This document shows positions 2,765 to 51,904 of a stretch of 64,000 bases of DNA, piece after piece; positions within the stretch are counted from its first letter, which is position 1; each line of letters starts with the position of its first letter. The stretch covers positions 124,001 through 188,000 of the forward strand of contig JAPJBO010000382.1 of the NCBI GenBank assembly GCA_030068145.1. The letters are read 5' to 3'. Below the pieces are notes generated by a model. It worked only from the letters and a program-made list of their open reading frames with translations. It ran no database searches and had not been told where the DNA came from. Source of the DNA: Diplonema papillatum (lineage: Eukaryota; Euglenozoa; Diplonemea; Diplonemida; Diplonemidae). The translations under genes and the position numbers were made by a program.

Positions 2765-5700
2765 TCAGCGGACCAGTCGGCAAGACGACACGGTGCTCGA
2801 AAGATTGCGCCGCACCTGCGGCTGCGCCGGCGGCGAACCCCCGACACAGGGTGAGAGGAAAGAAGATCCGGCAACGGACGACAGGAAAGAAGACCGCTGC
2901 TGCCTGCGGTCGTCCAAGCCGTGGAGGTGAGACTCCGGCGAAGACGTGAGTGGGACCAGCAAATTGATCCCCGTCGAAGCGAGGCGTTGGCTCCTTCTCC
3001 CGACGGGCGTCGCCGGCGAGTGCACCCTTGGTGAGGACCGACGGGGAGACCGCAGGCTCGAGCTAAACCTGCCACCGCCGAGCAGAGAAGATTGACTGAC
3101 GGTCGGCGACACCAGTAGGGCCCCGTCCATCGGATCATCCCCTAGGGGCGTGAACACGAAGTCGGACGGCGACGACGAGATGAGCGAAGCTGACAGCTGC
3201 CGGGCACTCGCTTCCGTTGAGAACATGGAACCCCGAGGCGATAGTTCAATGCCCCCTCGCAGAGACTTGGCCGGGGGTTGCAGAGTAATGCCGGTTGACT
3301 TCTCCTTCCCGAAGCCGCGGGGCTCGTTGGACGACGGTAAGTCCCCGAGGATGTCGCCATTGCCGCTCCGGCAACCAGTGAAAACCAGTTCCTGCAGCCG
3401 GGCGCGCCTTTCGGTGGAGAAGACGAAAGCTCCGAGCCCCAGATCGAGCAGCACCCGGATCCCGACGGTGAACAATGCGGCTGTAAGCAGGACAGTCGCC
3501 GTGCTGTGGGTCCAATGATGCGGTTCATCTGCGTAATACCCAGCAGCCATGAACAGCATGCCTCCTGCTTCTAACAAGGTTGTCACCATATCCGCGAGTG
3601 CATCCCTGGACTTCGCATACGGCCACACCCAGCTCATAGCGGCGAGCTCCATCAAAACCACGAGGGCTGAGCAAAGCTTCACGTGTCCGCAAGACGTGGA
3701 ATTCTCTGTCACCGGCGCCGACAGCGCTGCCAGGGCAAACGAGGACCCGAACCGCATCGACCCGAACCACGCTTTATCTCCGCTATACATCGTCAGCACG
3801 CTCTGGAATCGATGCGCCCACAGCACCTTCGGCGTCGTACTGACCCACTCCCCATTCCCGATGGCCATCCGCCAGCCGAAGCCTGTGTACCGATCGTCCT
3901 CCTTGAAAAAGGCGAGTAAAGGAACACTCTTCTGGACTTCACACACAACGAGCATCGGCACTATGGCACAGAAGGCGGCGGAGCAGAGTCCCGCAACGAA
4001 TGCAATGGTAGACGGGGGGTCGTAGATGAGGGCCATCGACCCGAGCGCTGAGCCTTGATAGAGCAAGGCGAACACAAGCAGCGGGAGGGAAGGCAGGCGG
4101 AGGAATCCTTGGATGTCCAGGTTGCGCAGGTGCGGAAACGACGTGACGGCACCGAAGCGCCGTGCGGCGGAGAGCACCACAAAGCAGAAAGCAGAGAACC
4201 CAGCATTTAACAAGAAGTTCCCTACCACCATCCCAAACGCAGGAGTCCCTGAAATCACCAAACCGGTAGGGTGGAACACAAACGGGAAGTCGTGCTTCGC
4301 TTTTGTGTAGCACCCGGAAACGACAAGCAGCAACCGGTGTCCACTTTTCCCGGCGTTCCCCGCCAGAGCCGCGGCACCCACAACCACAGGCACGACTGTC
4401 CCAATGGTCTCAGCCACCTCTTTGACACCCGAGCCTGCGATGAGATCAGTTACATTCTCACGGCCAGAAGGCGCCACAGCCGCAACAGCCGGACCTCCAC
4501 TAGGCCCGTCAGAAGCAGGCACGACAGTCGGAGAAAAGATGTATGGTGCGGTAGTGTCCGACGATGCAGTCGCCTGGATCGTGGTTTCAGACGGCGCATT
4601 CGACACAGCATGCTTTGTGGGGTGCGCTGAAGCCTGCGGAGGTGTAGTGATTGGTGCGGGTGCACTGGTGGACAGAGCGTTCATCGGTACATTGGTAGCT
4701 GGTGCAGCAAAAGGTGGTACCTCGGTAACTGATGCAGCCGTAGGTGCAGTACTCGATGATGCAACTGTGGAAGGCACATTGGTTTCTGGAGCCATCGTAG
4801 AAGGCGCATTGGTTGTTGGTGCAACAGTAGAAGGCATATCGCTAGCTGGTGCAACAGTCGAAGGAATATTCGTTGCTGGCGCCACAGTACGAGGTGTAAC
4901 AGTTGGTGGTGCAGTGGTAGCTGATGCAGCACTCGAGGGAACATTCGTAGCTGGTGCCACAGTAGGAAGTGCAGCTGTTGGCGGTGCACTGGTAGCTGGT
5001 GCCACAGTTGGAGGCACAGCTGCAGGTGCAGGAGCTTCAGTTGCAGGCGGATCAGTGACAGGTGCATCTGTTGCAGGAATTGCACTTGCAGGCCGATCAG
5101 TGGCAGGTGCATCTGTTGCAGGCGGATCAGTGACAGGTGCATCAGTTGCAGGAGTTTCGCTTGCAGGCGGATCAGTGGCAGGTGCATCTGTTGCAGGTGG
5201 ATCCGTTGCTGGTGCAAATGTTGCAGGTACATCAGTTGCAGGCGGATCAGTGACAGGTGCATCAGTTGCAGGAGTTTCGCTTGCAGGCGGATCAGTGGCA
5301 GGTGCATCTGTTGCAGGTGGATCCGTTGCTGGTGCAAATGTTGCAGGTACATCAGTTGCAGGCGGATCAGTGACAGGTGCATCTGTTGCAGGCGGATCAG
5401 TTGGAGGCGCATCCGTTGCTGGAGCAAATGTTGCAGGCGCATCAAATGCAGGAGCTTCAGTTGCAGGCGGATCAGTGGGAGGCGCATCAGTAACAGGTGC
5501 ATCAGTTGTAGGTGGATCCGTTGCTGGTGCAAATGTTGCAGGCGCATCAGTGACAGGTGCATCTGTTGCAGGCGGATCAGTGGCAGGTGCATCAGTTGCA
5601 GGTGGATCCGTTGCTGGAGCAAATGTTGCAGGTGCATCAGATGCAGGAGCTTCAGTTGCAGGCGGATCAGTGACAGGTGCATCAGTTGTAGGTGGACCCG

Positions 5701-49200: not shown

Positions 49201-51904
49201 CCGGAGCTGCAGTTTGCGGTGAAGTGGTAGCTGGTGCTGCAGTCTGTGGTGTACTGGTAGCTGGTGCTGGAGTTAGCGGTGAACTGGAAACCGGAACTGC
49301 AGTTTGCGGTGCACGGGTAGCTGGTGCTGCAGTCGCCGGTGCATTGGTAGCGGGTGCTGCAGTTAGTGGTGAACTTGTAACCGGAGCTGCCGTTTGTGGT
49401 GCATTGGTAGCTGGTGCTGCAGTCAGTGGTGAACTGGTAGCTGGTGCTGCAGTCAGTGGTGCACTGGTAGCTGGTGCTACAGTTAGTGGTGCACTGGTAG
49501 CTGGTGCTGCAGTTTGTGGTGAACTTGTAACCGGTGCTGCAGTTTGTGGTGCACTGGTAGCTGGCGCTGCAGTCAGTGTTGCACTGGTAGCTGGTGCTGA
49601 AGTCAGTGGTGCACTGGTAGCTGGTGCTACAGTCAGTGGTGCACTGGTAGCTGGTGCTGCAGTCAGTGGTGCACTGGTAGCTGGTGCTACAGTCAGTGGT
49701 GCACTGGTAGCTGGTGCTACAGTCAGTGGTGCACTGGTAGCTGGTGCTGCAGTCAGTGGTGCACTGGTAGCTGGTGCTACAGTCAGTGGTGCACTGGTAG
49801 CTGGTGCTACAGTCAGTGGTGCACTGGTAGCTGGTGCTACAGTCAGTGGTGCACTGGTAGCTGGTGCTACAGTCAGTGGTGCACTGGTAGCTGGTGCTGC
49901 AGTCAGTGGTGCACTGGTAGCTGGTGCTGCAGTCAGTGGTGCACTGGTAGCTGGTGCTACAGTCAGTGGTGCACTGGTAGCTGGTGCTACAGTCAGTGGT
50001 GCACTGGTAGCTGGTGCTACAGTCAGTGGTGCACTGGTAGCTGGTGCTGCAGTCAGTGGTGCACTGGTAGCTGGTGCTACAGTCAGTGGTGCACTGGTAG
50101 CTGGTGCTACAGTCAGTGGTGCACTGGTAGCTGGTGCTGCAGTCAGTGGTGCACTGGTAGCTGGTGCTGCAGTCAGTGGTGCACTGGTAGCTGGTGCTGC
50201 AGTCAGTGGTGCACTGGTAGCTGGTGCTGCAGTTAGTGGTGCACTGGTAGCTGGCGCTGCAGTTCGTGGTGCACTGGTAGCTGGTGCTGCAGTTCGTGGT
50301 GCACTGGTAGCTGGTGCTGCAGTTAGTGGTGCACTGGTAGCTGGTGCTGCAGTTAGTGGTGCACTGGTAGCTGGCGCTGCAGTTCGTGGTGCACTGGTAG
50401 CTGGTGCTGCAGTCAGTGGTGCACTGGTAGCTGGTGCTGCAGTTCGTGGTGCACTGGTAGCTGGTGCTGCAGTTCGTGGTGCACTGGTAGCTGGTGCTGC
50501 AGTCAGTGGTGCACTGGTAGCTGGTGCTGCAGTTCGTGGTGCACTGGTAGCTGGTGCTGCAGTTCGTGGTGCACTGGTAGCTGGTGCTGCAGTTCGTGGT
50601 GCACTGGTAGCTGGTGCTGCAGTTAGTGGTGCACTGGTAGCTGGTGCTGCAGTTAATGGTGCACTGGTAGCCGGCGCTGCAGTTCGTGGTGCACTGGTAG
50701 CTGGTGCTGCAGTCAGTGGTGCACTGGTAGCTGGTGCTGCAGTTCGTGGTGCACTGGTAGCTGGTGCTGCAGTTAGTGGTGCACTGGTAGCTGGTGCTGC
50801 AGTTAGTGGTGCACTGGTAGCCGGCGCTGCAGTTTGTGGTGCACTGGTAGATGGTGCTGCAGTCAGTGGTGCACTGGTAGCTGGTGCTGCAGTCGGCGGT
50901 GCACTGGTCGGTGGACTAATGGTTGACGGTGCATCTGTTGGCACCGCGGTCTTTGTACCGTTCAGGAACACGCTGAACGACGCATTGGAACACATGAACA
51001 CGACTATTCCATTTTGCACCGATTCGGCCACGGCCAAGTCAACGTCAGGGGAAGATGGAACGTAACTTGTGTCAGGGATCTCGTACGACTCGAGTAAGAC
51101 CTGCCCCCCGGGGCCCAACACGCCCAGTGACGAAAAGTTTGCGTAGTACAAATGGCTAAGAGGCTTCCAGAATGCTAGGGCGGAGTGCCCTGGGATCACC
51201 GTCGGGCTTTGGTACATCGGTTGCGTGCCCGTCACGTAGACGTACTTTTTCAGCCCGTCCGCCGTGGCCAACCAGATGTATTCTTCGCTGGCCGCGATGC
51301 CGGTGACCTCGTCGGCGGAAAACAAGGTCCCGCCCACCATGTTCGCCGGGTCTGCAACTTCGAACGCTTGCACCCCGGTGTCCAAGGCTACGTACACCTT
51401 GGTCGTGGTTTCTTCGAAGAACAGCATGCTGGGCGATCCCCCGGCGCAGGTCGCTGTGCCCAGGTGAACTAGGGACAGGTCGAAAGCGTACAAACCCGCC
51501 CCGCTGGCGGTCGTGCACGCGGTAAATACGTGCGCGTCCCCGGCTGCGACCGCGGTGCAGTTGGAGCCGGAGAACCAGAACGCAGTCGAAAGATTTGACG
51601 GGTGCAGGGCTTCGACGCCGTCCGCCGTCGCGACGTACACGTAGCCGCCGCCCGACGACGCAACGGCCTGCGGGATCAGAAACTTGCGTTCGACGGCGGA
51701 CTGACATAGCTCCGGGTCCGCACAGTCGAACCGCTGAAGGCCCGTCGCGTGTCCCACGAATACATCCGACCCGCTGCTGGCGATCCCGGCGCACTGCCCG
51801 CCCCCATTCAGCGGCGTCGACGACCACCTCATGTAGGACCCCGCGGCAAGCCGCACGCACGCCAAACCAAAAAGGAGCGATGCCCGGCCGGGCCCTCGCG
51901 CCAT
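46241..51904 (-). CDS. Gene C: giant mucin-like multi-membrane surface protein
   Basis: Uninterrupted 1887-residue frame. Signal peptide about 1-22 ([20 protein letters not shown]); Cys-containing propeller-like ectodomain (23-320) related to A and B only in outline (for example [20 protein letters not shown]); stalk (about 321-1250) dominated by decads [10 protein letters not shown], then more varied STVAPATNAP and Pro/Ala-rich units; about eight membrane segments (1275-1625) with [20 protein letters not shown] and [12 protein letters not shown]; Ser/Arg-rich tail to IVRS. Membrane block and tail closely match gene A, including ASARQLSAS and [16 protein letters not shown] segments. Partial copies of its two ends lie on both sides of it (44779-46139 and 52107-52318). 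The role is inferred as a glycosylated surface protein. Confidence 0.85.
49080..50920 (-). repeat. 30-bp minisatellite coding the gene C stalk
   Basis: About sixty units of GCTGGTGCTGCAGTCAGTGG-type sequence (30 bp, ten residues [10 protein letters not shown]). Variants T-V-A, T-A-A and R-T-A (GTTCGT for GTCAGT) are interspersed in blocks, showing internal duplication of multi-unit segments. Confidence 0.9.

Follow-up and report, generated by a model that had tools for sequence, protein, structure and literature searches.

Fungal adhesins of the ALS and FLO type carry a glycosylphosphatidylinositol (GPI) anchor at their C-terminus, and the adhesion-type G-protein-coupled receptors (GPCRs) of animals set a large ectodomain on a many-helix membrane base. 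Recombinants between the fungal ALS and IFF-HYR families have been described (PMC8712946), and the account in PMC5020489 presents the trans-sialidases of Trypanosoma cruzi as a large surface superfamily diversified by recombination, with its family structure kept. For Diplonema papillatum, suggested to be predatory and free-living (PMC10161547), the same source describes genes accompanied by partial tandem copies of their own 5' or 3' portions, and it reports gene replacement in the haploid laboratory strain. We report here on gene A of this species, which lies in a window of 64,000 nucleotides (C382:124001-188000, C382 being contig JAPJBO010000382.1 of the 271,365,524-base assembly). Within a tandem array of genes for membrane proteins, gene A very probably arose by natural recombination, which joined the 5' side of a B-type gene, inside the stalk, to the 3' side of a member of the D4-D6 lineage.

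Genes A, B and C of the window are single open frames, all on the minus strand, and they share a common plan: a signal-peptide-like start, a head, a Pro/Thr-rich stalk, a hydrophobic multi-helix base and a tail. The parts of gene A and its flanks, in window coordinates, are the following (aa, amino acids; dN and dS, non-synonymous and synonymous substitutions per site; TRF, Tandem Repeats Finder).

2765..8647, minus strand: gene A, a single open frame of 1960 aa with a B-type head, a switched stalk, and a D-type membrane base and tail (translation, trees, window scans)
7658..8647, minus strand: head of A, aa 1-330, a signal-peptide-like start and an LVIVD-type domain, of B-type lineage (Pfam, identities, AlphaFold model)
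8153..8512, minus strand: hypervariable patch in the head of A, aa 46-165 (identity to B of 49% vs 91-93% on either side; window dN/dS)
5038..7657, minus strand: B-type part of the stalk, with TDAPATDPPA-like units (TRF, 90-nt window scan)
5027..5037, minus strand: approximate point of the switch from B-type to D-type stalk (30-nt and 90-nt windows)
4460..5026, minus strand: D-type part of the stalk, with best matches mostly to D5, D4 and D6 (window scans)
3350..4459, minus strand: base of A, comprising several hydrophobic helices and a juxtamembrane segment that bears GCYT and HPT motifs (86-90% aa identity to D4-D6)
2765..3349, minus strand: tail of A, presumably cytoplasmic, D-type, its likeness to D5/D6 continuing beyond the stop of A (window scan, flank comparison)
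8648..8951, minus strand: 5' flank of A, like the 5' flank of B3 in two pieces of 74% and 78% (flank comparison)
1733..2764, minus strand: 3' flank of A, like the 3' ends and 3' flanks of D4, D5 and D6 (flank comparison)

The two ends of gene A clearly differed in their relatives when 16 genes (A, B, B2, B3, C, D1-D6, E1-E3, F and G) were compared in an identity matrix. The head of A shared 75-76% of its amino acids with those of B, B2 and B3, vs 19-22% with those of C and D1-D6; since the A-C value was 20%, the likeness between the A and B heads is not one that C shares equally. The first-pass annotation had described the signal peptide and most of the ectodomain as nearly identical to B, which is too strong: identity to B was 91% over residues 1-45, 49% over residues 46-165 and 93% over residues 166-335. 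The base of A was closest to those of D5 (90%), D6 (88%) and D4 (86%), followed by D1-D3 (74-75%) and C (71%), and it was indeed far from those of B, B2 and B3 (36-41%), as the annotation had stated.

Phylogenies of head and base, built separately as had been proposed beforehand, were sharply discordant. In the head tree (15 rows, without G), a branch with support of 100/100 set the B/E-type heads, including that of A, apart from the C/F/D-type heads, while in the base tree (14 rows, without F and G) gene A fell inside the D4-D6 clade (100/99), grouped with D5 and D6 (99/95). Approximately unbiased (AU) tests pointed the same way. For the base, holding A, B, B2 and B3 together was 372.8 log units worse (p 2.7e-88) and an A+C clade 52.5 log units worse (p 9e-13); for the head, placing A with D4-D6 was 422.3 log units worse (p 4e-78) and with C and D1-D6 193.7 log units worse (p 1.5e-7). 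With dS as an approximate clock, which dates swaps only relative to one another, head and base agreed in the pairs B2-B3 (0.069 and 0.063) and D5-D6 (0.055 and 0.053), and disagreed in A-D5 (saturated in the head, about 0.085-0.087 in the base) and A-B (0.271 and 1.56). The mosaicism of gene A, claimed at the outset and borne out by the discordant trees, the AU tests and the window scan described below, is real, and the discordance is not due to chance. Chance similarity of low-complexity repeats is not the explanation, since it is the unique blocks of head and base that disagree. Judged from these sequence comparisons, gene A is almost certainly a true recombinant whose base came from the D4-D6 lineage, and the plain mosaic of B and C first proposed gives way to a B-type head on a D4-D6-lineage base.

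The switch itself was located by a scan of gene A in 90-nt windows with a margin of 0.04, which revealed one sharp change from B-type to D-type. From position 0 to 3540 of the coding sequence, 59 of 60 windows were closer to B-type genes (one tie), and from 3600 onward 36 of 37 were closer to D-type genes (one tie). Windows of 30 nt placed the change at about 3612-3620 of the coding sequence, that is at about 5027-5037 of the window and inside the stalk, in agreement with the predicted change of stalk vocabulary near 5030. No sustained B/D switch was found in scans of D1, D3-D6, C, B2 and B3 (D2 stood outside that scan); lone B windows occurred in D6 and D3, and the many ties in the D and C bases arose because A itself belonged to the B-type set there. 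The flanks follow the two sides, the 5' flank being B3-like and the 3' flank D5/D4/D6-like, and the stretch just before the ATG of A also lines up with B and B2 on inspection by eye. A 50-bp piece of the region upstream of A also matches the D4 upstream region and looks like a dispersed repeat; D-type tail pieces lie after A at window 2243-2356 and 2533-2645.

Both parental lineages are found in the same array. The segments C340:218623-220892 and C382:202888-205164 overlap end to end over 2277 bp at 99.65%, and therefore 13 genes could be placed in one head-to-tail array of a single direction, which begins with D1-D6 on C340 and continues on C382 with B3, C, B, A, B2, E3 and F. By coordinate arithmetic, the distances from the ends of D6, D5 and D4 to the start of A are about 80, 97 and 110 kb. 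Three further genes, E1, E2 and G, are placed on separate contigs (C12, C182 and C778).

From a mechanistic point of view, gene A would owe its 5' region, its head and most of its stalk to a B-type gene. The rest of the stalk, together with the membrane base, the tail and about 1 kb of downstream sequence, would come from a member of the D4-D6 lineage. The single join would lie inside the Pro/Thr-rich repeat stalk, whose units are mostly multiples of 15 nt, and may have been made by ectopic exchange, by template switching or by microhomology-mediated repair. All TRF periods in the A, B and C stalks are multiples of 3, and 26 of 27 are multiples of 15, so that in-register joins keep the frame. 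The repeats had been called frame-neutral, which these periods support, but not as an absolute rule, as the stalks of B2 (L040) and B3 (L041) change frame within repeats in this assembly, through assembly error or decay. Recombination within the minisatellite had also been proposed. The switch does lie inside the stalk, but homologous exchange is weakened by the shortness of the exact words, of only 10-15 nt, that the B-type and C/D-type stalk parts share (part of the B2 and B3 stalks was compared, and D2 was left out). A microhomology or template-switch event therefore fits at least as well. The present sequences do not support classical homologous exchange along an extended identical tract; the join may stem from repair at short units common to both stalk types, or from an exchange made while the stalks still resembled each other more. 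A further sub-question is whether the event was a gene conversion and not a crossover, with a tract from a D4-D6-type base or from a B-type head copied into a resident gene. Gene A sits between B and B2 and not beside the D genes, its D-like flank extends only about 1 kb past the stop, and the near-identity of B to B2 falls off at the head/stalk border, all of which suits conversion; intergenic sequence decays fast, however, even between close paralogs, so that the ends of a tract are indistinguishable from later decay, and we lean slightly away from conversion.

Gene A was not the only mismatched gene of the array. Its neighbours B and C are composed as follows.

28910..33778, minus strand: gene B, 1622 aa from its ATG, with a head near-identical to that of B2 and a base of remote lineage (scans, identities, dS)
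32789..33778, minus strand: head of B, 97% aa identity to B2 (identity matrix)
28910..30859, minus strand: base and tail of B, whose nearest other match in the genome is 48% (B2) (genome search)
46241..51904, minus strand: gene C, 1887 aa, with a C-type head and a C/D-type base, not the base donor of A (trees, identities)

For B and B2, dS was 0.039 in the head and 1.42 in the base. No relative of the B base closer than 48% was found in the genome (matches up to E 1e-40), a single base clade of B, B2 and B3 gave an AU p of 0.026, and in the window scan the near-identity to B2 dropped at the head/stalk border. These comparisons indicate that B is also chimeric, or that its head was recently converted. 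The head of F is C-type (44% to C, and 35-44% to C and D1-D6), and its base, at 34% to that of G on C778 and 20-23% to the rest, belongs to another subfamily; a genome search with this base gave 78 matches, which include fragments and probable duplicate contigs, some of them weak or overlapping the A-base set. The pair D2/D3, with a dS of 0.147 in the head and 0.348 in the base and a base-clade AU p of 0.048, is only suggestive of a fourth case.

Partial extra copies also accompany these genes: the last 93 aa of C (97%) at window 45685-45963, the start of the C head at 52105-52294 and the tail of B at 28322-28710. Such copies beside A, B and C fit the repeat-bounded genes described for this species in PMC10161547. 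Between A and B lies a degenerate array of a 16-nt unit, AAAGTTCGGGCGAAGC, at window 19124-19932, and fragments of different parts of eukaryotic large-subunit rRNA occur on opposite strands at 40794-41286 (plus) and 56996-57211 (minus). The published model of gene C, P0004, named Adhesive plaque matrix protein, matches it at 100% over the searched region, using frame 1 for head and base but turning to frame 3 in the stalk, over its residues 207-424; it should be noted that this model reads the stalk in a shifted frame, an annotation problem worth flagging.

The proteins are putative cell-surface molecules. The Pfam profile LVIVD (PF08309, cut-off 20.2) matched the heads of A (23.2 bits) and B (22.6 bits), and that of E1 below the cut-off (16.2); the Pfam scan gave no LVIVD match in the heads of C, D4, D6 and F. 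The AlphaFold model of the A head is nearly all-beta, with a predicted local distance difference test score (pLDDT) of 68.9 and a predicted template modelling score (pTM) of 0.72. The stalk consists of Thr/Pro/Ala-rich tandem repeats, rich in hydroxyl residues, and the bases of A, B, C and D5 show 5-6 hydrophobic peaks followed by a long tail. The only Pfam hit of the B base was DUF2818, below the cut-off (E 0.028). The hypervariable head patch is common to A, B, B2 and B3, with near-identical flanks. Between B2 and B3, its residues 46-165 had a dN of 0.192 and a dS of 0.074, vs 0.021 and 0.085 from residue 166 onward (Fisher p 0.013 for B2-B3 and 0.075 for B-B3, uncorrected for the choice of the patch after the window scan had been viewed). 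Between A and B, dS was high too over residues 46-165, which may reflect an older exchange within the head. We infer a cell-surface protein with a signal peptide, a propeller-like head, a probably glycosylated stalk, a multi-pass base and a cytoplasmic tail. Whether it serves recognition, the head binding something outside and the base anchoring or signalling, is in our view evenly balanced. A role in contact with prey or surfaces is a guess, consistent with the predatory lifestyle.

The base occurs with a variety of heads. A genome search with the A base gave at least 113 matches (113 of the 180 candidates scored), fragments and probable duplicate contigs with identical scores included, and 14 further genes were sampled for their heads, one per contig, picked for long open frames and not at random. 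Continuity of head and base was judged by frame and open-frame length: in 13 of the 14 the frame of the base stayed open as far as the sequence was fetched, and the protein start was hydrophobic, while L057 gave no head; the fetched sequences of L050 and L059 stop short of the repeat stalk. By BLASTP, L047 joined the propeller group through a link with G, five heads (L049, L051, L054, L055 and L058) formed a group called Cys-rich by reading, L052 and L056 formed a pair, and L046, L048, L050, L053 and L059 stood alone, several heads having no BLASTP likeness to that of A. Among the 13 sampled heads, Pfam recognised Laminin_G_3 in L050 (E 4e-14) and LVIVD, below the cut-off, in L047 and L053, and gave no match above the cut-off in the remaining ten. 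When a 5.8-billion-protein set was searched, with about 8000 candidates scored for each query, the A head had no match, the C base matched only P0004 and the A base only P0004, at 71%; such absence says little because D1-D6 were not returned either. No description of this membrane-protein family was found in the literature listed on D. papillatum gene families, diplonemid surface or multigene families, LVIVD in Euglenozoa, protist head/stalk proteins, seven-transmembrane proteins of D. papillatum or domain swapping in diplonemids, and the words "transmembrane" and "adhesi" do not occur in the article text of PMC10161547.

Several observations weigh against our interpretation of gene A and of the family. 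The fork that joins the A head with B, B2 and B3 alone is supported only at 87/88, the words shared by the two stalk types are short, as noted above, and among eight genes with C-type heads and eight with B-type heads no reciprocal C/D-type head on a B-type base was found. The A base has no Pfam match, the base alignment has no sequence relative in the PDB at E up to 1, and the model of the base, which shows eight helices of at least 20 residues, is of low confidence (pLDDT 62.9). Finally, five head classes on a tree of 22 bases (F and G included, long branches flagged by the program) need six changes, where the least possible is four and the shuffled mean 11.8. Head class would thus be mostly co-inherited with the base, A and F being the clear exceptions, and exchanges therefore look occasional. 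The modular system first proposed is supported in a weaker form, in so far as one base family carries dissimilar heads and B and F are further mismatches; that heads mostly follow the base phylogeny speaks against free swapping.

These results bear on the leading alternative, that A is the by-product of repeat-rich tandem arrays which recombine now and then, head exchange being rare and neither specially selected nor used for diversification. Besides the co-inheritance of heads and bases, the A-D5 base dS of 0.085, which implies that the event is not fresh, and the frame breaks in the B2 and B3 stalks agree with it; against it stand three mismatched genes (A, B and F) plus the suggestive D2/D3 among 13 array genes, several dissimilar head types on one base family, and the excess of dN over dS in the B2-B3 head patch. 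We give it a little less than an even chance. It is much less probable that the assembler joined a B-type and a D-type gene at repeats, although the junction falls at one end of a repeat array of 2.6 kb (5023-7605). The compared stalks share exact words of at most 15 nt, too little for a mistaken overlap; the A head and the A base each occur once at 100%, with the next paralogs at 77% and 91% aa identity; among the close relatives of the two halves, four B-type heads (A, B, B2 and B3) and eight C/D-type bases (A, C and D1-D6), each has a partner and no orphan half was seen; and the flanks of A agree with its two sides. PacBio long reads and haploidy are, moreover, reported in PMC10161547. An assembly chimera is very unlikely on these grounds. 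That the base came from neighbour C, to which the first-pass annotation had likened it closely on account of shared strings (a 19-letter string and ASARQLSAS do occur in both genes, and the window holds no C/D-type base other than those of A and C), is refuted, since both strings are also in D5 and D6, LSPTVS is not an exact match, a further cited string is in neither A nor C, C was best in 0 of 97 scan windows, identity and base dS favour D5 (90% and 0.087, vs 71% and 0.445 for C), and an A+C clade is rejected.

A natural recombinant of B-type and D4-D6-lineage genes is then to be set beside known systems. The swap would put a different recognition module on the same base. A wider reading is of a large diplonemid family of multi-pass surface proteins, in which one base carries dissimilar ectodomains on frame-safe repeat stalks, and heads are exchanged and diversify on one face, giving a changeable recognition set for prey, partners or self; we offer it tentatively and consider it rather unlikely in this full form. 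The fungal ALS/IFF-HYR recombinants are the nearest precedent found. The ALS, IFF-HYR and FLO adhesins are alike in being repeat-rich surface proteins with a head swapped onto another stalk, the tandem-repeat stalk rich in hydroxyl residues being a shared trait, and they differ from the present proteins, which have propeller-like or other heads and a multi-pass membrane base. No ALS or PA14/FLO N-terminal domain was matched by Pfam in the heads scanned, and the bases, with their hydrophobic peaks and long tail, do not resemble a GPI-anchored end, as judged without a GPI predictor. The resemblance to adhesion GPCRs is one of working principle only, and the A base matched no known seven-transmembrane receptor profile in Pfam and no sequence relative in the PDB. 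Compared with the repeat-bounded genes of D. papillatum, A, B and C show similar copies, but those are partial duplications and not fusions of two lineages. The trans-sialidases of T. cruzi likewise form a large euglenozoan surface family shaped by recombination, whereas in gene A one head class sits on the base of another class, and host-immune selection does not apply because PMC10161547 describes D. papillatum as free-living and predatory. Head swapping was already known in fungal adhesins; gene A adds a case from a free-living relative of trypanosomes. Its multi-pass base had no relative in Pfam or PDB searches, its join is mapped to within about 10 bases, and both lineages are present in the same array. 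One can therefore test whether surface repertoires prone to recombination were present in Euglenozoa before parasitism.

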